From Myxococcales bacterium (GTDB lineage: Bacteria; Myxococcota_A; Polyangia; Polyangiales; Houyiibacteriaceae), in the NCBI GenBank assembly GCA_029863605.1, contig JAOTVB010000001.1, forward strand, positions 224,187-288,186: DNA of 64,000 nt, in the 5' to 3' direction. The stretch's first letter is position 1. Each line of letters begins with the position of its first letter. The notes below the pieces were generated by a model that had not been told where the DNA came from, ran no database searches, and was given only the letters and a program-made list of their open reading frames with translations. The position numbers and the translations under genes are program-made. Shown here in pieces: positions 2,876 through 63,652 of the stretch.

Positions 2876-3393
2876 AGCTCTGGGTTTGGATCGCGGGGAT
2901 CAGCCTCGCGCTCGGGATGCTGCTGTCCGTCGTTGCGCGGAGCCCCGCTTCGCTCAAGCCTGTAATTGCCGTTTGGTTTCCCGAGATCGCGTGGGTCGAT
3001 GCGCAGACGCTCTCCGGGTGGATGAACCGCGAACCGTCGGAGCGGCCGGTCATCCTCGATGTTCGCACGAAGGAAGAGTTCGAGGTGAGTCACCTCGAGA
3101 GCGCCGTGCGCGCGGAACCGGGGCGCCCTGATATCGCGGCGCTGAATCTCCGGGCGGACTCGACGGTCGTCGTCTACTGCTCGCTGGGCGTCCGGAGTGC
3201 CGCGATCGTCGACGAGCTCGAAGCCGCAGGCGTCGCGAAGGTCTACAACTTGGAAGGGGGGATTTTCGATTGGGCGAACGAGGGCCGTCCGATCTTCCGC
3301 GACGGCAAGCCCGCTCACCAGGTCCATCCCTACGGCGAACCATGGCGGCTCTACTTGAAGAGCGAGCTGCGCGCGCCGCTGAGCGCCGACTGA
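2872..3393 (+). CDS. Membrane-anchored rhodanese-like protein
   Basis: A 173-residue protein with an N-terminal hydrophobic segment (about residues 3-22, signal anchor) and one rhodanese domain. It shows the LDVRTKEEF substrate-side motif, the active-site loop YCSLGVRSA with catalytic Cys about 103, and the C-terminal LEGGIFDW motif. Rhodaneses transfer sulfur through a cysteine persulfide; single-domain exported forms are poorly defined. It starts with GTG overlapping the GH92 stop by 4 bases, suggesting translational coupling, although no functional link between mannosidase and sulfurtransferase is known to me. Domain call is firm, substrate unknown. Confidence 0.88.
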   Translation: MKLWVWIAGISLALGMLLSVVARSPASLKPVIAVWFPEIAWVDAQTLSGWMNREPSERPVILDVRTKEEFEVSHLESAVRAEPGRPDIAALNLRADSTVVVYCSLGVRSAAIVDELEAAGVAKVYNLEGGIFDWANEGRPIFRDGKPAHQVHPYGEPWRLYLKSELRAPLSAD

Positions 3394-3448
3394 GCGCTTC
3401 CGTATTTCCGGCCGATTTGTTATCAGCGGTGATGATAGGAGAGGAACG

Positions 3449-3769
3449 ATGGCGAGAATCACGATTTGGTGTTTGGCTGCATTGGTGATGGCACTCGGAG
3501 CGGTCGGGTGCGGGGGAGATGACGGAGCGAGCGGCGGTGGTGGTGATTGCGCCCGCATTTGCGGGAGCTCTTGCGTCGCCGAGTTCCTGCCCGCGCAGTC
3601 GGGCGATGACTGCGTGCGCGCATGCGAGATGGACACAGGTATCCTAAGCGGTTGCCTGTCCGAAACCGTGTCGGTGCTGGCTTGCCTCGAAACCATCGAC
3701 TGCGGGCGATCCGGGTCGACCGCGTGCCTCGATCAATCGCTAGCCTTTAGCGACTGCATTTCTCCCTAG
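3449..3769 (+). CDS. Small cysteine-rich lipoprotein, unknown function
   Basis: A 106-residue predicted lipoprotein preceded by a clear ribosome binding site (AGGAGAGGAACG directly before the ATG). The signal peptide ends in a lipobox-like GAVGC (Cys21), followed by a Gly/Asp linker and a compact domain with about ten cysteines, including CARICGSSC and CLETIDC. These are probably disulfide-bonded in the periplasm or on the cell surface. I do not recognise the family. Small Cys-rich lipoproteins like this are frequent in myxobacterial genomes. It lies 11 bases before the M48/VWD gene and may be in one transcript with it. Confidence 0.75.
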   Translation: MARITIWCLAALVMALGAVGCGGDDGASGGGGDCARICGSSCVAEFLPAQSGDDCVRACEMDTGILSGCLSETVSVLACLETIDCGRSGSTACLDQSLAFSDCISP

Positions 3770-3780
3770 CGAGCAGAGTC

Positions 3781-6459
3781 ATGGCTGGCCCATCGAGGAT
3801 GCGTCTCGCAGTGTTGATAGCTATCGTTGGTGGGGCCGGGCTTGCCTGCAAGTCCTCGGGCGGCTCGTCCAAGGCCAGCGTGGTGAACGACGCGGCGCTC
3901 AGCGCATACTTGCAGTCGGTTTCGGACGAGGTCGCGGGTGGGTCCGACTCTACGTATCGCGTCGTGGTGTACGACGCGGATTTCGCGCAGGCGTTCGCCC
4001 TGCCGGGCGACGAGATCGCGGTCACGCTCGGCATGTTGGGGTTCATCCAGACCCAGGCGGAGCTCGCCTGTGTGCTCGGTCACGAGATTGCGCACCACCA
4101 GCTCGGGCATGTGACTGATTTCTTCGGGGGCGACGCTTCACCTCCGATCGGTGAGTCCCATCCGCTCGCGCGAGGCTGGCCCGAAGCGCAGGAGCAGGCT
4201 GCAGACGATCTGGGGCTTTCGCTATGCGCTGCGGCGGGTTATGAGGCGTTGAGCCTTCCGCATTTGCTGTTTCGGGCAGCTCAGGTCGAGTCCGGCGAAT
4301 CCGTGGACGAGCTCCTCGACGCTGCACCATCAGCAAACTCAGGAGTAGACCGAACGCTCCTCGCCGTGGAGACGATCGGTGATGGCGAGCTCGACGGTGG
4401 ACGAATCGGCTACCCGGAGTACGACTTCGTGCGCGACTGGCTCGCTGAATCGGATTTCCTGAAGGCAGGGCTGTCACCCCAACACGAAGGACCCAACTTC
4501 TTCCCATTCGTGGGCTTGGAAGGCGTGGTTGCCGTTGGGCTGAACTATGAAGAGTTCATGCGAGACAACGCCCGCGCAACATTCGACTGGATCGATCGAG
4601 AGTGCGGGCGAGAAGGTGTGACGGTCATCCCAACCAACCATCTCGATGCTTTTGGTCACTGCTGGGCTGGGTGCAGGGCGCAAGAGCTCTGCGGGGGCTG
4701 CCAGAACCCCGGGGTGTTTTACGAAATCGCGCGAGAGGCGGGCTACGGCGGAGACGAGCACGACAGCTTCGCGGAGGACTGGCGCAACCAAGAGATAGGA
4801 GCGCGTGGCGCGGTGACGGACCAGTCCTGCGAGGACTATTGCACCGACAAGATCGAATCGGGCGGCCTCGACCTCACGGCACCGCAACGCAAGTGGTGGG
4901 ACTGCGCTTCACGTGACCTGCTCGATACGCGACCGAACGGCGGCGAGTACACCGACTACGGCGCTCTTGGGTCACCTGACATTTTCGGCGACCCTCACAT
5001 GCGAACCATCGACGGCTTGCGCTACGATTTTCACGGGGTCGGCGAGTTCATCGCGGTGAAGTCGACCGTCGACGACCTGATGGTCCAGGTCCGGCTCGCG
5101 GAAGTTGCTGCGCTTCAAGCCAGCAAGACGAGCGCCGTGGCAGCCAACGTTGCGGGCGATCGGGTTGGAGCGTACCTCGGGCCGAGCAGCTTTGTGGTGA
5201 GGGTCAACGGTGAAGCCTTGGATCCGAAAGGCTCGTGGGTGCAGTTACCCAACGGCGGTCAAGCCCAAGTGGAGAGCGACGAGGTGGTGTTTCAGTGGCC
5301 CGACGACACGCGGCTGTGGGTGTATTACTGGGGTGACGTTCTCGACCTGGCAATGACGCTGCCAGCTCAAAGGCAAGCCGCTCTCTCTGGCCTACTCGGC
5401 AACGCAGACGGGGACCCGACCAACGAGTACATCACACGAGAGGGCGTGCCGGTCGATGTTCCAGACGAAAGCGGCGAGGCGCGCCGCGAGGCGCTCTATT
5501 CCGAGTTTGGGGAGAGCTGGAGGATCGACGCTGCCGAGTCTCTCTTCGACTACGAGCCTGGTGAGTCGAGCGACGATTTTCAGGCGCCTGGCTTTCCTGC
5601 ATCGGACTTGACCATCGACGACCTCGACGAGGTCACCCGACGAGAAGCTCGTGAGGACTGCATTTCGTTGGGCGTCACCGAATCGCCGTGGCTCGAGGAC
5701 TGCATCTTCGATGTCGGATTCACCGGTGAGCTCTCTTGGGTCAGCTCGGCGCGCAATGCGGCCGACCCGAACAGTCTGACCTGGAACGAGATGTACGAAG
5801 TGGAGGGCGAGATCGAGGGCGATGGCGTCTTCATCCTGGAGCAGTTCATCGGCAAAGCGGGCGACGAGCAGTTCTTCCGATTCACCCAAACGATGTCGAG
5901 CCTCGGGCTAGCCAATTGGGAGGTCCGCACCCCCAGCGGAGACCTCTTGTTTCTGAACTGCGTGTTCAGATGTGGTCAGCCGGGCGCATTCGTGCTGCCC
6001 GAAAGCGGGCTCTACGTGTCGCGCGTGGTGGCCGATCCAGGAGAGCGTGGAGTGCTCACAGTGGCTCGGAATGTGGTTCCCGAGCCTCAACTGTTTGACA
6101 TCGGCAGTGCGACGGGCGTCGCCTTGGAATCGCTCGGAGAGGGTGCCGGGTCGATCGAAATACCGGGCAGCGAGGACATCTATCGGATCGACGGGCGTGC
6201 GGGGACAACGATCACACTCACGCCCGTCGATATCGACGGCGCAATTCAGTTTGGTCAGTGGAAGCTCACGGCTCCGACCGGGACGGTGTTGTTTGATCAG
6301 ATCCTGCCGCTCACGGGAGGCACTCCCCGCACCCAAGATCTGGTGCTCGACGGCCCCTACGAACTGTCGATCACCGGCGGAAACTCATGGCCTTCGGAAT
6401 GGAACTTCGGCTATGGCGAATACCGTATCCAGTTCCAGGTCACCCCAACACCGGGCTGA
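3781..6459 (+). CDS. M48-like metalloprotease fused to von Willebrand D domain, lipoprotein
   Basis: An 892-residue exported multidomain protein. The signal peptide has lipobox GLAC (Cys about 23). Residues about 40-170 resemble M48 peptidases: zinc motif HEIAHH (about 101) and the third-ligand motif EQAADDLGLS (about 137). Residues about 280-370 form a Cys-rich segment (FGHCWAGC, CGGC). At about 403, GDPHMRTIDGLRYDFHGVGEF is the hallmark start of a von Willebrand factor type D domain, continuing to about 560 with the LLGNADGDPTNE motif. The C-terminal 250 residues look like beta-sandwich (PPC-like) secretion modules. M48 proteases usually act on misfolded envelope proteins; VWD domains mediate adhesion or multimerisation. 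Joining the two on one lipoprotein is unusual and suggests a cell-surface or matrix role, which is inference. Confidence 0.82.
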   Translation: MAGPSRMRLAVLIAIVGGAGLACKSSGGSSKASVVNDAALSAYLQSVSDEVAGGSDSTYRVVVYDADFAQAFALPGDEIAVTLGMLGFIQTQAELACVLGHEIAHHQLGHVTDFFGGDASPPIGESHPLARGWPEAQEQAADDLGLSLCAAAGYEALSLPHLLFRAAQVESGESVDELLDAAPSANSGVDRTLLAVETIGDGELDGGRIGYPEYDFVRDWLAESDFLKAGLSPQHEGPNFFPFVGLEGVVAVGLNYEEFMRDNARATFDWIDRECGREGVTVIPTNHLDAFGHCWAGCRAQELCGGCQNPGVFYEIAREAGYGGDEHDSFAEDWRNQEIGARGAVTDQSCEDYCTDKIESGGLDLTAPQRKWWDCASRDLLDTRPNGGEYTDYGALGSPDIFGDPHMRTIDGLRYDFHGVGEFIAVKSTVDDLMVQVRLAEVAALQASKTSAVAANVAGDRVGAYLGPSSFVVRVNGEALDPKGSWVQLPNGGQAQVESDEVVFQWPDDTRLWVYYWGDVLDLAMTLPAQRQAALSGLLGNADGDPTNEYITREGVPVDVPDESGEARREALYSEFGESWRIDAAESLFDYEPGESSDDFQAPGFPASDLTIDDLDEVTRREAREDCISLGVTESPWLEDCIFDVGFTGELSWVSSARNAADPNSLTWNEMYEVEGEIEGDGVFILEQFIGKAGDEQFFRFTQTMSSLGLANWEVRTPSGDLLFLNCVFRCGQPGAFVLPESGLYVSRVVADPGERGVLTVARNVVPEPQLFDIGSATGVALESLGEGAGSIEIPGSEDIYRIDGRAGTTITLTPVDIDGAIQFGQWKLTAPTGTVLFDQILPLTGGTPRTQDLVLDGPYELSITGGNSWPSEWNFGYGEYRIQFQVTPTPG

Positions 6460-6550
6460 GGGTCGGACCCATAGGCCGCGCGGCCTGCTCCTTTAGCGTC
6501 CCTCGTAACGACTCGCGCGAGGTTGCCGATCGTACTACTCTCCCACGTCT

Positions 6551-7750
6551 ATGCGCAGTCTCTCTTCGTTGGGCGCGACCGCCGGCGCGGTCGTTTCGGT
6601 CTTCACTTTGTTTGTCGTTGGATGCGATGGCGACTCGGGCCCGACCGCTTCTGCGGACGAGCTGTTCGAGCAAGGGCCGTACGAGGTCGGCTACCGAGAG
6701 ATGACGATGACGTACAGCGCGGCGGCTTCGATGGAGCCGCGCGAGCTGGTGTTACGGGTGTGGTATCCGGCGCAGGACGAGTCGGGTGCGGCACCTGCGC
6801 GATACGCGGTGGCGGGTGTCGTCGACCTGGCTGCTGGGTCTGCGCTCGAAGCACCGCCGGTGACCGACGACACGAATCTGCCGCTCGTAATCTATTCGCA
6901 CGGCAACGGCGGGGAAGGGTTGCTGGCCTATCCGTATGGTGAGCTGATGGCGTCGCACGGGTGGGTGCTCGTTGCGCCGAACCACACCGGCAACACGGCG
7001 CTGGATCTCGCCTTTGGTCCGGCGGACCCTCCGGCGCTGGTGGCGCTCAATCGTCCCACTGACATCACCGCCATCATCGACGAGTTCGATACGGGTTTGA
7101 GCGGTGACGACCTCGAGAGGAAGGCCGACGTCGATCTGGGCGTCTTCCTTTTTGGCCACAGCTTTGGCGGCTACACGTCGTTCACCGCGGGCGGTGCCGA
7201 TGTCGACTACGATGTCGCCGCGGCTGACTGTGAAGGAGTGATGAGCGAAAACTGTGACGTGCTCACCGATCCAAACGTCGAGGCGGCCTACCGTGCCGGG
7301 TTCGGCGACCCGCGCATCGTGGCCATCGCGCCGCAGGCGCCGGCCCTCGTCGCAATTGCGGACGGCGAGCTCGGCAGTCTCGGCATTCCCACCCTGCTGA
7401 TGACCGGGCGTCTCGACCAGACGACTACGCAGGAAGAATCAGCGGACCCGTCGTGGGCAGGCATCGACGACCCGAACGACATCTGGGTCGAAATGCCACT
7501 CGGCGCTCACTACAGCTTCATCACGGTTTGCCATGACCTCACCCCTGAGATTCTCGGGCTGTTCATCAGCGGCGCCGATCAGGACGGTTGCAGTCCCACC
7601 TTCATCGATACGAGAGAAGCGGTTCCCGTGCTCGCCGCGTACTTGCTCGCCTTTGGCCGGCGCCACCTGCTCGGGCAAACCGAATGGAACGCCATCCTGA
7701 CCGGTCCGCCGCTGGGCAACCAAGGCGACTTCGTCGTGACGGCGAATTAG
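6551..7750 (+). CDS. Platelet-activating-factor acetylhydrolase-like lipoprotein (alpha/beta hydrolase)
   Basis: A 399-residue exported alpha/beta hydrolase. The N-terminus is a lipoprotein signal ending FVVGC (Cys25). The fold is marked by YSHGNGGEG (oxyanion side, about residue 116), APNHTGN, and the nucleophile elbow GHSFGGYTS with Ser about 204. A late GAHYSF may carry the catalytic His. The arrangement resembles PAF-acetylhydrolase/dienelactone hydrolase-like bacterial lipoproteins, which hydrolyse esters of phospholipids or polyesters. Cysteines around AADCEGVMSENCDV probably form a disulfide, in keeping with export. It is monocistronic in appearance, with a convergent neighbour 43 bases downstream. 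Substrate unknown. Confidence 0.85.
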   Translation: MRSLSSLGATAGAVVSVFTLFVVGCDGDSGPTASADELFEQGPYEVGYREMTMTYSAAASMEPRELVLRVWYPAQDESGAAPARYAVAGVVDLAAGSALEAPPVTDDTNLPLVIYSHGNGGEGLLAYPYGELMASHGWVLVAPNHTGNTALDLAFGPADPPALVALNRPTDITAIIDEFDTGLSGDDLERKADVDLGVFLFGHSFGGYTSFTAGGADVDYDVAAADCEGVMSENCDVLTDPNVEAAYRAGFGDPRIVAIAPQAPALVAIADGELGSLGIPTLLMTGRLDQTTTQEESADPSWAGIDDPNDIWVEMPLGAHYSFITVCHDLTPEILGLFISGADQDGCSPTFIDTREAVPVLAAYLLAFGRRHLLGQTEWNAILTGPPLGNQGDFVVTAN

Positions 7751-57804: not shown

Positions 57805-59031
57805 TCAGTCTGCCGGCTCGTCGGTAGGAACCCTCGTGGAATTGTACGCAACCACCAACACCTGAGCGAGAGCGACGCCTGCGACGACCGTGCCGACCAT
57901 ACCCGTGATGATGGCGGCGACCGTCGGGCCCTCGATGGCCGAGCGGGCGCCGGGAATCGGCCACAGTTGGCTCGCGACAAGCAGTCCGATGTGGACGCCG
58001 TAGAGCGCCAGCAACGAGTAGGCCCACCAGTGTGCTCCAGCTCGCGTGCTGCTGTCCATGAAGGCCATCAGCGACAGCAGCGCCAACAGGCCGAAAGCCA
58101 TCTGGGACGATGCGGGCCCCCACGACTGCCAATACCCCTCGAGCCTGACGAGGCTCTCATGGCCACCTGACAGGAAGAACCAGGCTCCGAGGGCCAGTAC
58201 CCCCGCGGTGACGGCGACGCGAGCCAGGGTCGCCCCTCGGTAGTACGCTCGAAATAGCAGGCTCCCACTGAGCAGAATCGTGGCCATGGCAAGGATGATG
58301 CCGTCCGGAGCGATGCCTTGAAGAGTCTGCTGCCATAGGGCCACCCCTGTGGCCACGGCGCCCAGCAAGAAAAGCGAGATCGCGCGCCCTCCGTAAGACA
58401 TAGGCGTGAACGCGAGCGTGAGCATGCTGATAAGCAGAGCGACGGAGACGAACGTGAGGGGATGTGCCCCGCCGGTTGCCAGGGCGCCCACGATCCCGGC
58501 GGCGCTCAAGCCGACCGTGATGCGACGGAGGGCCGGTGCTCCTGGAGCGCGGGGCCGCATCCGTTCCCGCAAAAGCTTGGAAGCAAGAATTGGCGGACCC
58601 GGTGGTATGGGAATTTTGGGCAGGCTTTCGCTGGGCTGCGTCATCGACACGCTGGCCGATGTAGGCTCCGGGTCCTCGAAGGACTGGCGCTCGGTGCTAT
58701 CGGTGCGGTCGATCTTCTTGCGGTGAAGCGGCAAGACCGGCGCTGGCTCACTCTGCTCGCGCTCACGGATCGTGGTGCGGGACACCCCGGTTTCATTCAT
58801 TGCGGTCGGAACCGGACTGGAGAGATCCACGACCGCAACCGCTTGGGCCGCGACGGTCGCGGGTCGCTCGAATTGCCCGCTCGGAGGCTCGGGCGTGCTG
58901 TTCGTGTTGTCGGTCTTCGCCTCCCGCACGATCGGCACGACGGGCTTTCCCCCAGGGACAGGCTCTCCACAGATGCCACAAAAGGCGTCGGTTCGAAGCA
59001 CTTTACCATCACAGCTTTGGCACTTGGGCAT
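57805..59031 (-). CDS. Zinc-ribbon polytopic membrane protein
   Basis: A 408-residue protein. N-terminal zinc ribbon CQSCDGKVLRTDAFCGICGEP (C-x2-C and C-x2-C), a 140-residue low-complexity linker (Pro/Thr/Ser/Glu), then about eight TM helices from residue 175 to 395. The ribbon-plus-membrane layout is common in myxobacterial proteins, but I cannot place this family. Convergent with the CAP-domain gene (two bases apart). Confidence 0.72.
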   Translation of the reverse strand: MPKCQSCDGKVLRTDAFCGICGEPVPGGKPVVPIVREAKTDNTNSTPEPPSGQFERPATVAAQAVAVVDLSSPVPTAMNETGVSRTTIREREQSEPAPVLPLHRKKIDRTDSTERQSFEDPEPTSASVSMTQPSESLPKIPIPPGPPILASKLLRERMRPRAPGAPALRRITVGLSAAGIVGALATGGAHPLTFVSVALLISMLTLAFTPMSYGGRAISLFLLGAVATGVALWQQTLQGIAPDGIILAMATILLSGSLLFRAYYRGATLARVAVTAGVLALGAWFFLSGGHESLVRLEGYWQSWGPASSQMAFGLLALLSLMAFMDSSTRAGAHWWAYSLLALYGVHIGLLVASQLWPIPGARSAIEGPTVAAIITGMVGTVVAGVALAQVLVVAYNSTRVPTDEPAD

Positions 59032-59236
59032 CGCGTTCTAGCCAACCCGGTGCTGAGATCATACGCGTCAGGGCACGCCCACTTCAACCGGCGCGGTAGG
59101 GAGATGTGTGCCCCCCGAAGACAGACATCGCATCCCTGGTACCGCGGAGCAACAATCTCGCCGATGCCATGACAGAAATGTCCTAGCGCTGCGGGCGTGG
59201 GTCTCGAAAACACAGGGCTTTCGGCGTCTGACCGGT
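59032..59236. other. Upstream region of the small RNA, no gene seen
   Basis: No protein-like frame and no clear promoter for the leftward zinc-ribbon gene. It should contain the enhancer-binding site for the sigma-54 promoter; no inverted repeat of note was found by eye. Confidence 0.5.
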
Positions 59237-59252
59237 TGGCACCGCGATTGCA
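59237..59252 (+). promoter_or_regulatory. Sigma-54 -24/-12 promoter
   Basis: TGGCAC-N5-TTGCA, identical to the sigma-54 consensus core (TGGCAC N5 TTGC A/T). The GG/GC spacing places +1 at about 59263. It faces the gene-free interval that ends in an intrinsic terminator, so it most likely drives the small RNA below. No other feature in the window has such a promoter. An activator (EBP) site must exist upstream; none was recognised in 59032-59236. Confidence 0.8.
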
Positions 59253-59262
59253 GTGTACCCAG

Positions 59263-59423
59263 TCGCTTGCTTAAGACCCACGCCGTGCACCTTCCAGCTT
59301 GCCCGGCATCCGCGCGGCGATGGGTCGCACTTTAATCCGAAAACTTCCTTACCCTAGCTTTGTTCACTGTAGCATCGATTCTTGCGTTGGGAATGGGTCA
59401 CCGAATGGTGGCCCATTTGTTTT
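59263..59423 (+). ncRNA. Predicted sigma-54-dependent small RNA, about 161 nt
   Basis: The predicted transcript starts 12 bases past the sigma-54 -12 element. It has (1) a 5' stem-loop: GACCCA (59275-59280) with GCCG (59282-59285) pairing with CGGC (59315-59318) and TGGGTC (59321-59326), with a small internal bulge; (2) a less GC-rich central stretch (59327-59390) with a CCUUACCC-type C/U tract (ACTTCCTTACC) that could pair with ribosome binding sites; (3) a 10-bp terminator stem, ATGGGTCACC/GGTGGCCCAT with one G-U pair, loop GAAT, and TTGTTTT. No protein-like reading frame ends before the terminator. Myxococcus Pxr is a known sigma-54-driven sRNA, though no sequence similarity is claimed. 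Confidence 0.7.
59392..59423 (+). terminator. Intrinsic terminator of the predicted small RNA
   Basis: Stem 59393-59402 with 59407-59416 (10 pairs, one U-G), GAAT loop, followed by TTGTTTT on the plus strand. Distinct from the adjacent minus-strand terminator of the YdcH-type gene at 59441-59475. Confidence 0.78.
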
Positions 59424-59440: not shown

Positions 59441-59475
59441 GAAAAACGGCCCGCCATTTTCGGGCGGGCCGCCTA
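59441..59475 (-). terminator. Intrinsic terminator of the YdcH-type gene
   Basis: Stem GGCCCGCC (59448-59455) with GGCGGGCC (59463-59470), seven-base loop, and on the minus strand the run GTTTTTC follows. It faces the small-RNA terminator, so the two transcripts converge and both end between them. Confidence 0.8.
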
Positions 59476-59510: not shown

Positions 59511-59708
59511 TTATGGAAGGGCGTGTTGGATGGCGTCCTTCGTCCAGAGCTTCTCTTTCTTGAGGCGCTGGAGCTCCATCGCTTCGTTCGGGGTCAGACT
59601 AAGGCGGCTGTCGAGCTCTGCGACGCGCGCCGCCAGCTCTGCATGCTTTTCTGCCAGGCGCGTCACATCGCGCTCCGACGGGGTGGGTTGAGCATGGTGC
59701 TTCGGCAT
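59511..59708 (-). CDS. YdcH family (DUF465) small protein
   Basis: A 65-residue helical protein of the YdcH/DUF465 family: SERDVTRLAEKHAELAARVAELDSRLSLTPNEAMELQRLKKEKLWTKDAIQHAL, with the characteristic L-KKEKL-KD pattern. An ideal ribosome site (GGAGGTGA) precedes the ATG, so expression should be strong. Cytoplasmic; function not established. Ends before an intrinsic terminator. Confidence 0.88.
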   Translation of the reverse strand: MPKHHAQPTPSERDVTRLAEKHAELAARVAELDSRLSLTPNEAMELQRLKKEKLWTKDAIQHALP

Positions 59709-59903: not shown

Positions 59904-60605
59904 ATGACCTCTAGGGTTGGGGCGATAGGTCTGGTTTTGCTTGTGCTTGCGCTGGTTGGGGGTGCCGCTGCGGAGGCACGCGAACCCCTCAACGCGTCGG
60001 CGGTCGTGCGCCTCGTGCAGAGGTTCTACGACCAAACCAAGACCCTTCAGGCTGACTTCAGCCAGACGCGCTACACGCGGCTCTACGACCGTTACGATCG
60101 GGCGAAAGGCAAAGTGGTGTTCAAGAAGCCCGGTAAGATGCGTTGGGACTATGACCAGCCGAACGGGCAAGTCTTCGTGACGCAGGGCGACAAGCTCCTC
60201 ATCTATCAGCCCCCCGAAGAAGGCGAGAAAGGCGGCCAGTTGATCGAGCGCGCCCTGAGCGAGGATCAGCTGCCCGCTGCGTTTTCATTTCTGACCGGGG
60301 GCGGCAACCTCGAACGAGATTTCGACGTGCGATTACTCGAGCACGACAACGAGAAGTTCCAAGATGGTTACGTCCTGCAGCTCATTCCACGGAAGCCGAC
60401 CCCGAGCTACGAGCAACTCGTCTTCTACGTTCGTACGGTCGCGGCTGGCGACAAGAGCGCCGGCGTCGTCCAACGTGTGTTGATCATCGACTCCGCTGGC
60501 AATCGCAACCGCTTTGATTTTTCGAAGATCAAGTTCAACCGAGACATCCCCGACAAGCGTTTCACATTTCGTGCTCCTAAGGGCACCCACAAAGTCAATC
60601 CGTAG
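59904..60605 (+). CDS. lolA: Outer membrane lipoprotein carrier LolA
   Basis: A 233-residue periplasmic carrier. Signal peptide (about 1-26, ALVGGAAAEA), then LVQRFYDQTKTLQADFSQTRYTRLYDRYDRAKGKVVFKKPGKMRWDYDQPNGQVFVTQGDKLLIYQP, the LolA-specific LolA fold with ADFSQ and GKMRWDY blocks, and a C-terminal NRFDFSKIKFNRDIPDKRFTFRAPKGT typical of the family. LolA shuttles lipoproteins from LolCDE to the outer membrane. Single gene, separate from the RND-linked LolA-like paralogue at 26 kb. Ribosome site is weak. Confidence 0.94.
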   Translation: MTSRVGAIGLVLLVLALVGGAAAEAREPLNASAVVRLVQRFYDQTKTLQADFSQTRYTRLYDRYDRAKGKVVFKKPGKMRWDYDQPNGQVFVTQGDKLLIYQPPEEGEKGGQLIERALSEDQLPAAFSFLTGGGNLERDFDVRLLEHDNEKFQDGYVLQLIPRKPTPSYEQLVFYVRTVAAGDKSAGVVQRVLIIDSAGNRNRFDFSKIKFNRDIPDKRFTFRAPKGTHKVNP

Positions 60606-60725: not shown

Positions 60726-61823
60726 CTACATGGTTGAGTTGGACTCAATAGTTCTTGAGACCAGGGCGTAGAGGGCGCGACTGAGAGCTTTTTGGTCGTT
60801 GGGCGGTATCAGGGCGTCTTTTGGGAGGTGTTGGGTAAGGCCATCGAGGTGGGTTGCGACGACCGGCAGGCCCCTTGCGCGCGCTTCGAAGATCACCGTC
60901 GGCACACCGTCATTCGGGCGCGACGGCACGATAAGGGCGTCGCAGCTTCGGAGCAGCTTCTCTTTTTGCACGCCGCAAACCCAGCCTTCGAAATGAGCGT
61001 TCACGCCGACTTGGCGTGCAAGTAACTCGAGCCGGCGTCGTTCGGGACCGTCGCCCGCGATTCGAATACTGACGTCGAAGGAAAGGTCTGCCACTGCCCG
61101 TATCAAGCGATCGACGCCCTTGACCGGCACCAAGCGACCCAAAAAAAGCACGGTAAAGGCTTCCATGCCAAGCTCGCGGCGCCACCGTTCCCGGTTGTCT
61201 CCGAGGGTTGGCGGCGGCTCGATCGGCATCGGCCCGATATGCGTAGTCTTCGAGCTGGGCTCGAGCTCCGCGATCGAAAAGAACCGGTTTCGCAATGCCT
61301 CGGTGAGAAACCACATCGAAGTAGCGCCACGCGCGATCCGCCGGGCGACCGCGCGGGCTCCTGGAAGTCGAGAAAGCCACCGCACGTCTGTGGCGTGACA
61401 GATGCTGAGATGAGGGCGGCCATCCGCACTCGCCGATGCGACCCACCCGCACGGCAGACACCAATGACTCACGAGCGCGTCGCAGTCATCGAGCAGCCGT
61501 ACCGCGACTGTCTGTGCGGCAGTGAAGCTCAGGGCGCCCAACCACGCTGCAGGTTGCATTCGCAGCGTGTCGGGCGCTCCACTTCCATAGAACGTCCGCT
61601 GCAGGCCACGCGGACGGGCATAAGGCACCCATCGAACCTCGATACCCGGCCATTGCGGCGCCCTGCGCTGGCGGGGTGGCTCGGGGGCCAAGACACGAAT
61701 CTCATGACCATGCGCCGCCCACGCACGCGCCATGGCGAGCACGAAGGCGCCGCTGCAATCGCCCTCGTAGCGCGGAAAGCTCGTCGTCAGTATTCCGATC
61801 TTCACGTTGGCGACCGAGCTCAC
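60726..61823 (-). CDS. Glycosyltransferase (GT4-like)
   Basis: A 365-residue GT-B fold enzyme. It has the start VKIGILTTSFPRYEGDCSGAFV, a typical GT4 N-terminus, FLGRLVPVKGVDRLIRAVADL in the C-terminal Rossmann domain, and IRIAGDGPERRRLE, the conserved nucleotide-sugar region DALIVPSRPNDGVPTVIFEARARGLPVVATHLDG with the E-x7-E pattern. GTG at 61823 overlaps the glmS stop by 4 bases (GTGA); GTG at 61805 is a shorter alternative. It probably uses a UDP- or GDP-sugar for a surface glycan. Coupling to glmS links it to amino-sugar supply. Confidence 0.87.
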   Translation of the reverse strand: MSSVANVKIGILTTSFPRYEGDCSGAFVLAMARAWAAHGHEIRVLAPEPPRQRRAPQWPGIEVRWVPYARPRGLQRTFYGSGAPDTLRMQPAAWLGALSFTAAQTVAVRLLDDCDALVSHWCLPCGWVASASADGRPHLSICHATDVRWLSRLPGARAVARRIARGATSMWFLTEALRNRFFSIAELEPSSKTTHIGPMPIEPPPTLGDNRERWRRELGMEAFTVLFLGRLVPVKGVDRLIRAVADLSFDVSIRIAGDGPERRRLELLARQVGVNAHFEGWVCGVQKEKLLRSCDALIVPSRPNDGVPTVIFEARARGLPVVATHLDGLTQHLPKDALIPPNDQKALSRALYALVSRTIESNSTM

Positions 61824-63652
61824 TCGACGGTAACGGTTTTCGCGAGGTTGCGAGGCTGATCCACGTCGGTGCCCTTGTGGTCGGCGACACAATACGCGTA
61901 GAGCTGGAGCGGAACCACCGAGACGAACGGCGTCAGAGCTTCGTGGGTGGGCGCGATCTCGACGAACGCATCGCACAAAGCCTGCGCCTGGGAATCACCC
62001 TCGACAGTGATCGCGATGATCTTGGCTTCGCGGGCGCGGGCTTCTTGTAGGTTACTGAGGGATCGATCGTAGTGACGATCGCGCGGCAAAAGGACGATCA
62101 CCGGGACATGCGCGTCGAGCAGAGCGATCGGGCCGTGCTTCATTTCCCCGGCCGCGTACCCCTCGGCGTGCACATAGGAAATCTCCTTGAGCTTGAGAGC
62201 CCCCTCGAGAGCCATCGGAAAGCTCAGTCCACGACCGAGAAACAAAACGTCATGCGCGTCGGCGAAGGTGCGCATGAGGTCCTTGATCGACTCGTGTGTG
62301 GACTGGAGGCGCTCTTCGATCAAGTGCGGCACCCGAGCCAGGCCCTCCACGATCTCGGTGGCCTGCGCATCATCGACGGCCCCTCGGCGGCGGCCGAGCC
62401 AAATACTGAACATCAAGAGGTTGGCGAGCTGGGCCATGAAGCACTTGGTCGAAGCAACGCCGATCTCGGGACCCGCGTGCGTGTAGAAGCTTGCATCCGC
62501 CATCCGGGGGATCGCACTTCCGATGACGTTCGCGATAGCCAGCACCTTGGCGCCTTTTTGCTTGGCTTCCCGCGCGGCCATCAAGGTGTCGATCGTCTCG
62601 CCAGACTGGCTCACCGCAATGACCAAATCCCCCTCACCGATGACGGCGTCGCGTCCTCGAAACTCGCTCGCAAGCTCGGCGATCGCCTGCAACCCAGTGA
62701 GCTCCTCGATCCAGTACCGGCCCGCGACCGTGGCGTGGTGACTCGTCCCACACGCCAAGAGGACCACGCGCTCGATCTTTTTGGCGTCTTCGTCGGTAAG
62801 TCCAATCTCGAGCGCATTCACGTCGGCGCTCTCGCGATCGAGACGTCCACGGAGCGTATCCTCGAGTGCCCGGGGTTGCTCGAAGATCTCCTTCAGCATG
62901 AAGTGCTTGTACCCGGCCTTCTCCGCCATGACCGGAGACCACGAAATCCGCTGCGTCTCGCGCTCGACCGGCGCTCCTTCGAGAGTCGACAACGAGAAAC
63001 GCGTCGCTTCGAGAACAGCGATCTCATCGTCTTCGAGGAAGAGCATCTCATCGGTGTATGGAAGCAGCGCAGGGATGTCGCTGGCGCAGTACATGGCCTC
63101 CCTCGATACCCCTATCACGAGTGGTGACGCGTTTTTGGCCACGATGACACGGTCGACCTGCTCGGTGGACAGGACGGCGATGGCGTACGTGCCCTCCACC
63201 TGCGCGAGTGCTCGGCGAACGGCATCCAAAAGATCGCGGCCAGCTTTGGTCTCTCGATGAACGAGGTGCGCGACGATCTCGGTGTCGGTGTCGCTGCTCA
63301 TTCCGAAACCGTCGGCCTCGAGCTCTTGGCGGAGCTCGAGATGGTTCTCGATGATGCCGTTGTGCACCACGGCAATCGGGCCCGCGATGTGTGGATGGGC
63401 GTTGATTTCCGAGGGACGGCCGTGGGTTGCCCATCGCGTGTGTCCGACCCCGACCGTGCCCGTGAGCGGATTCTCCGTGAGGGCCTTTTCGAGGTTTCGG
63501 AGCTTACCGACGGCTCGCACGAGCTCGATGCGACCATCATCGTGGACCGCAACTCCGGCCGAATCGTATCCGCGGTATTCGAGGCGCCGAAGCCCGTCGA
63601 GTAGGATCGGCGCTGCTTGCTCGTCCCCTACGTACCCGACGATTCCGCACAT
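61820..63652 (-). CDS. glmS: Glutamine-fructose-6-phosphate aminotransferase (isomerising)
   Basis: A 610-residue GlmS. The N-terminal Cys2 glutaminase (MCGIVGYVGDEQAAPILLDGL) with RRLEYRGYDSAG, then two SIS sugar-isomerase domains with LACGTSHHATVAGRYWIEEL, SQSGETIDTLMAAREAKQKGAKVLAI and LGRGLSFPMALEGALKLKEISYVHAEGYAAGEMKHGPIAL. It makes glucosamine-6-phosphate for peptidoglycan and LPS. Complete and normal. No glmS ribozyme is visible in the 9-base gap upstream, as expected outside Firmicutes. Confidence 0.97.
   Translation of the reverse strand: MCGIVGYVGDEQAAPILLDGLRRLEYRGYDSAGVAVHDDGRIELVRAVGKLRNLEKALTENPLTGTVGVGHTRWATHGRPSEINAHPHIAGPIAVVHNGIIENHLELRQELEADGFGMSSDTDTEIVAHLVHRETKAGRDLLDAVRRALAQVEGTYAIAVLSTEQVDRVIVAKNASPLVIGVSREAMYCASDIPALLPYTDEMLFLEDDEIAVLEATRFSLSTLEGAPVERETQRISWSPVMAEKAGYKHFMLKEIFEQPRALEDTLRGRLDRESADVNALEIGLTDEDAKKIERVVLLACGTSHHATVAGRYWIEELTGLQAIAELASEFRGRDAVIGEGDLVIAVSQSGETIDTLMAAREAKQKGAKVLAIANVIGSAIPRMADASFYTHAGPEIGVASTKCFMAQLANLLMFSIWLGRRRGAVDDAQATEIVEGLARVPHLIEERLQSTHESIKDLMRTFADAHDVLFLGRGLSFPMALEGALKLKEISYVHAEGYAAGEMKHGPIALLDAHVPVIVLLPRDRHYDRSLSNLQEARAREAKIIAITVEGDSQAQALCDAFVEIAPTHEALTPFVSVVPLQLYAYCVADHKGTDVDQPRNLAKTVTVE

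Follow-up and report, generated by a model that had tools for sequence, protein, structure and literature searches.

A putative sigma-54 dependent small RNA gene conserved within one genus of uncultured myxobacteria

The window, which is the whole stretch of 64,000 nucleotides analyzed here, almost certainly harbors the gene of a sigma-54 dependent small RNA (sRNA), as judged from its anatomy and conservation. The promoter, a 5' stem-loop and a terminator are conserved in 19 genomes, are restricted to one genus, contain no conserved reading frame and have a common enhancer and promoter architecture. From these observations we infer that the gene is transcribed, which protein activates it, and that the RNA works by base pairing. 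With moderate confidence we favor the reading that the RNA would be transcribed by sigma-54 RNA polymerase, activated by an FHA-GAF protein, and would act in trans and independently of Hfq via an invariant loop.

The window belongs to a 4.2 Mb genome in 54 contigs (G000). The host genus consists of uncultured marine-sediment myxobacteria and is presumably SG8-38 in the Polyangiales (GTDB). SG8-38 originates from estuary sediment (PMC4411801).

Anatomy of the locus

The features of the locus and its neighbors are listed in Table 1. The promoter sequence fits TGGCAC-N5-TTGCW exactly, as no other place in the 64 kb does; with one mismatch allowed, 1.3 matches are expected by chance. Its -24 GG is located at 59238-59239 and its -12 GC at 59250-59251, with 10 bp between them. 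Since the -12 C is at 59251, the predicted transcription start is near 59261-59263. The RNA predicted from 59263 to 59423 folds at -54 kcal/mol, with a z of -2.5 against dinucleotide shuffles. The earlier note had proposed a full consensus -24/-12 element followed by an RNA of about 161 nt with a 5' stem-loop and a rho-independent terminator. The first is borne out by the single exact match and its presence in 19/19 genomes, including the 18 close relatives in which it was to be looked for, and the second by the fold and its conservation.

Table 1. Window positions of the predicted small RNA gene, its upstream sites and its neighbors (a dot where no strand is assigned).
Feature	Position	Strand	Remarks
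408-aa protein with N-terminal zinc-ribbon-like motif (sub-threshold in Pfam)	57805..59031	-	divergent upstream neighbor; same position in 18/18 relatives
Putative enhancer (UAS) core GACAGAAATGTC, inverted repeat GACA-N4-TGTC	59171..59182	.	19/19 genomes; predicted binding site
Second element, loosely palindromic AAAACCCnnGGGTTTT-like (here AAAACACAGGGCTTTC)	59207..59222	.	31-33 bp upstream of -24; conservation 0.82
Sigma-54 -24/-12 promoter TGGCACCGCGATTGCA	59237..59252	+	exact consensus; TTGGCAY-N4-[AT]TTGCA in 19/19
Predicted small RNA	59263..59423	+	~161 nt here, 150-201 nt in relatives; aligned in 19 genomes
5' stem-loop, 13 bp	59275..59326	+	100% of cells paired; 10/13 pairs never vary; one pair changed on both sides
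Hairpin loop, 23 nt, invariant TTCCAGCTTGCCCGGCATC	59289..59311	+	20/24 positions of 59289-59312 invariant, 19 genomes
Variable linker between 5' and 3' modules	59329..59342	+	length differs by up to ~50 nt
3' conserved module incl. TAGCATCGATTCTT..GTTT	59343..59389	+	17 invariant positions
Rho-independent terminator	59391..59423	+	11-12 bp stem 59391-59418, then U-rich tail TTTGTTTT; stem 99.1% paired, 19 genomes
DUF465 gene	59511..59708	-	convergent downstream neighbor; Pfam PF04325, E 2.8e-9
lolA, lipoprotein carrier gene	59904..60605	+	Pfam PF03548, E 1.8e-22

The terminator has the layout AATGGGTCACC-GAAT-GGTGGCCCATT-TGTTTT. It was not listed by a simple terminator scan, though it is evident and kept in all relatives. 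The variable length of the linker suggests that the 5' and 3' parts are two separate modules. The motif CUUGC is present in the leader, the loop and the 3' module, the third copy being degenerate in several genomes. Targets or a protein may bind at the loop, which is the most likely contact point of the putative RNA.

Aligning the 19 loci revealed the enhancer motif GACAnnnnTGTC, which in every genome precedes the -24 GG by 66-68 bp. This putative enhancer site is new here and was absent from the earlier note. The sRNA promoters and most of the promoters downstream of the activator gene described below carry the second element at an equal distance from -24. It was unrecognizable at 31-33 bp in the activator promoter of G000 and its closest relative.

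In the 18 other genomes of the genus the locus is found at the identical place (18/18), according to a DNA search and a comparison of neighbors. The setting is a divergent zinc-ribbon gene upstream and the DUF465 gene next to lolA downstream. A conserved stretch, CACTTCAACCGGCGCGGTAGGGAGATGT, is located at 59079-59110, between the promoter region of the divergent gene and the enhancer. At 59441-59475 on the negative strand there is a strong inverted repeat with a T run, kept in several relatives, with which transcription of the convergent DUF465 gene probably ends.

Conservation and distribution

Averaged over the alignment columns of the 19 copies, conservation is 0.98 in the enhancer, with about 0.70 in its surroundings, 0.94 in the -24/-12 element and 0.95 in the 5' leader. 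It is 0.91-0.93 in the 5' stem and 0.99 in the loop, falls to 0.53 in the linker, and is 0.88 in the 3' module, 0.93 in the terminator stem and 0.59 after the terminator. The -24/-12 element, the stems and the loop are far better kept than the linker and the flanks, and the element is thus well beyond chance. In the stems, 99.6% of the cells are paired, compared to 35-51% when the partners are slid along the alignment of the 19 genomes.

Two checks proposed in the earlier note bear on the stems. Both stems are kept in 19/19 genomes while the flanks diverge. A search for covariation gave a divided answer: the pairing is kept, but compensatory changes are scarce, with both sides changed in 1/25 pairs. 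The stems vary too little for more than weak covariation, and with so few compensatory changes conservation rests mostly on sequence.

In a DNA search each of the 18 other genomes of the genus matched strongly, and nothing outside it did. A covariance model of these 19 copies, run against 184 genomes of the order, found only the copies of the genus and one match in coding sequence; in the approximately 165 other genomes of the order the element was otherwise not found. The coding match (G021, E 0.003) is a chance match inside what we read as purB. A scan for the loop in 84,980 species recovered this genus again, for example in the MAG of Myxococcales bacterium SG8_38, and two matches in Rhizobiales. 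These two exact loop matches (L067 and L075) have no neighbors in common with the sRNA locus and are regarded as chance.

The suggestion that this may be an undescribed RNA agrees with the Rfam search, which gave no match to the RNA at the gathering score. Relaxing the score gave three sub-threshold chance matches, none of them GlmY or GlmZ, the best being to the terminator hairpin of the opposite strand. Membership in known RNA families is unsupported by Rfam, and we regard the predicted RNA as a new family within a known kind of sRNA.

A candidate activator and its apparent regulon

The composite of enhancer and promoter occurs essentially only twice per genome in the genus, at the sRNA and after the stop codon of an activator gene. 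In 14-15 genomes of the genus a related site, GACATTNNTGTCATA, is located at the stop codon of one orthologue of this activator. In brief, the activator is a 606 aa protein with FHA, GAF, sigma-54 AAA+ and Fis-type HTH domains, encoded at approximately 173.2-175.0 kb of contig C7 in G000. About 77 bp past GACATTNNTGTCATA is GGCATGGCCTTTGCTT, a -24/-12 element whose GG and GC are spaced as in the sRNA promoter, followed by a lipoprotein gene and a gene encoding a CarboxypepD_reg protein. Four of the genomes that carry the RNA gave no activator match; all four assemblies are fragmented or incomplete. Since only the composite sites at the sRNA and downstream of the activator gene recur in the genus, the FHA-GAF protein is the best candidate, and we hold with moderate confidence that it activates the sRNA.

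Orthologues of the activator in the outgroups, including other families of the order, are 59-75% identical. Among 15 scorable outgroup loci, 9 have GACAnnnnTGTC shortly past the activator stop codon, and 8 of these 9 also a recognizable -24/-12 element. The distances from the enhancer to the GG are 69, 78, 78, 91, 101, 101, 102 and 109 bp, which are mostly near steps of one helical turn. A third class of enhancer-like site, GACATTTTTGTCATC, found in 7 genomes, was rejected; the three copies that were read are the start-codon region of another gene and have no -24/-12 element.

Across the 184 genomes of the order the composite pattern gave 108 matches, 74 of these outside the genus, compared to 1 when the pattern was reversed as a control. 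Related enhancer-binding proteins are numerous in the order, and GACAnnnnTGTC may be common to some of them. At position 1500 of each of five loci (L181, L182, L183, L203 and L206) the composite of GACAnnnnTGTC and sigma-54 promoter stands ahead of one apparent gene family, and a PilZ domain was confirmed by Pfam in both loci tested, L182 and L206. The occurrence of the composite ahead of PilZ-type genes in other genera suggests an undescribed, order-wide regulon, perhaps linked to c-di-GMP. The composite offers a handle on this apparent sigma-54 regulon across the order.

Single loci add to this picture. At L153 an FHA-GAF-sigma-54 activator gene (3217-5037) is directly followed by its apparent enhancer site and a lipoprotein operon (5080-7406), the mRNA of which would be nearly leaderless. 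At L209 (near 1043-1092) and L210 (near 2678-2728, negative strand) CGAAA..GGGCTTTCG stands ahead of a GG/GC-type site and of genes for secreted or lipoprotein-like products. As this sequence recurs at these two loci, each from a single genome, the second element could be part of further sigma-54 promoters as well.

Proposed mechanism and alternatives

We suggest that sigma-54 RNA polymerase binds the -24/-12 element at 59237-59252, and that activation comes from an enhancer-binding protein at GACA-N4-TGTC (59171-59182), for which the FHA-GAF-AAA+-Fis-HTH protein is the most likely candidate. Transcription would run for approximately 161 nt, up to the intrinsic terminator. The lipoprotein operon beside the activator's own gene would be a second target of this protein, so that one signal would yield envelope lipoproteins directly and the RNA in parallel. 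A link to the envelope is hinted at by the neighboring genes: the activator gene adjoins lnt as well as the lipoprotein operon, and the sRNA gene has lolA nearby. The RNA would then probably pair in trans with mRNAs, without Hfq. For this it would use its invariant loop (UUCCAGCUUGCCCGGCAUC), perhaps together with the 3' module.

Hfq (PF17209) gave no match in the 19 genomes of the genus (0/19), while five control genomes do match. Pairing of the leader, loop and 3' module was tested against the starts of nine genes close to the RNA gene or the activator gene, namely those of the zinc-ribbon gene, DUF465, lolA, GT4, glmS, argJ, the activator, the lipoprotein gene and lnt. Mean z ranged from -1.2 to +1.2, with nothing convincing among these nine. 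An earlier, unnormalized duplex scan for targets gave noise.

If the conserved DNA were instead a regulatory region of the flanking genes, no RNA would have to be made. The promoter region of the divergent gene does lie upstream and is itself partly conserved, but conservation tracks the promoter, the two hairpins and the terminator in order and stops past the terminator, and the downstream gene is convergent; we find this reading very improbable. Slighter still is the chance that the transcript is a 5' leader or the mRNA of a tiny ORF, a reading that can be considered largely refuted already. Short TTG or GTG frames are present in individual genomes, but no reading frame is conserved across the 19 copies. 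Indels shift the frame over the invariant loop, which reads FPACPASARRW in some genomes and LSSLPGIRAA in others, and neither starts nor stops are kept; there is thus no conserved peptide. The earlier note had likewise seen no protein-like frame in this interval. In addition, the conserved terminator precedes the next gene, DUF465, which is encoded on the opposite strand.

The alternatives that accept a sigma-54 dependent RNA concern its activator and its mode of action. A different enhancer-binding protein with the same GACAnnnnTGTC site could activate the RNA, the motif beside the FHA-GAF gene then being a related site of the same class. G000 has 28 places matching the sigma-54 activator domain, of which about 22 are strong, and other genera have the composite motif ahead of various genes, those with a PilZ domain among them. 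This has to be set against the presence in the genus of two recurrent composite sites, one of them right after the FHA-GAF gene in 14-15 genomes, and against the persistence of the pairing of gene and site in other families. We consider another activator rather unlikely. A little less likely again is that the RNA sequesters a protein via its loop or 3' module, as CsrB/RsmZ and GlmY do, rather than pairing with mRNAs. GlmY is a sigma-54 sRNA and works by sequestering RapZ (PMC7073468). The near invariance in sequence of the loop and the 3' module would suit such a role, as would the absence of Hfq from 19/19 genomes and of a conserved target among the nine nearby gene starts. The RNA has, however, no repeated CsrA-type GGA motif, the third CUUGC copy is degenerate in several genomes, and the reading comes without a known candidate protein. 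We lean towards base pairing as the probable action of the RNA. A more far-reaching proposal, that in these Hfq-less myxobacteria the FHA-GAF activator drives lipoprotein genes directly and, in parallel, a genus-specific sRNA with an undescribed chaperone-free or protein-sequestering mechanism acting through the 23-nt loop, is speculative and on present evidence doubtful.

Comparison with known sigma-54 dependent small RNAs

Sigma-54 dependent sRNAs were described as rare in the earlier note, but are less so than claimed, with GlmY, Qrr and CrcZ as examples. Qrr1-5 in Vibrio and CrcZ in Pseudomonas are stand-alone sigma-54 sRNAs with an upstream activator site and act with Hfq. GlmY needs QseF, the site of which is TGTC-N10-GACA. 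The RNA described here differs from Qrr1-5 and CrcZ in that Hfq is absent and Rfam gives no match.

The closest parallel is Pxr in Myxococcus xanthus, likewise a myxobacterial stand-alone sigma-54 sRNA with a functional 5' stem-loop and a 3' stem, from a lineage without Hfq. Pxr has a sigma-54 promoter, an essential 5' loop and the activator PxrR; it is 108 nt long with three stem-loops, its gene lies downstream of pxrR/nla19, which encodes a response regulator, and reports of it are confined to Cystobacterineae (PMC5568312, PMC5684412, PMC10217877). M. xanthus is reported to lack Hfq (PMC5684412). Unlike Pxr, the sRNA here is 150-201 nt long with two conserved stem-loops, its locus adjoins the DUF465 gene and lolA rather than following pxrR/nla19, and its candidate activator has no receiver domain.

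The one Pxr segment compared, the 26-nt SL1 probe segment, did not align significantly to the RNA (shuffle p approximately 0.29). The same segment was not found in 379 genomes of the phylum, among which Myxococcus is possibly unrepresented. The lack of evidence for homology to Pxr noted earlier is repeated here for this segment, and by location and type of candidate activator the RNA is not Pxr. In the literature found, Pxr is the only characterized myxobacterial sigma-54 sRNA, and the RNA described here is a second, independent candidate from a different lineage. It bears on how sRNAs act in myxobacteria without Hfq. As a candidate activator can be named, and both an enhancer motif and an invariant loop are defined, its control and mechanism are directly testable.

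GlmY in E. coli, a further analogue as regards the logic of control, is likewise a sigma-54 sRNA with an envelope-linked enhancer-binding protein and a lipoprotein in its circuit (PMC7073468). It acts through RapZ (PMC7073468). Unlike the QseF site of GlmY, the site here is GACA-N4-TGTC, and no pairing of the RNA with glmS was seen. The glmS gene is itself located in the window, at 61820-63652 on the negative strand and approximately 2.4 kb from the sRNA gene, a setting that recalls the enterobacterial control of glmS by GlmY and GlmZ.
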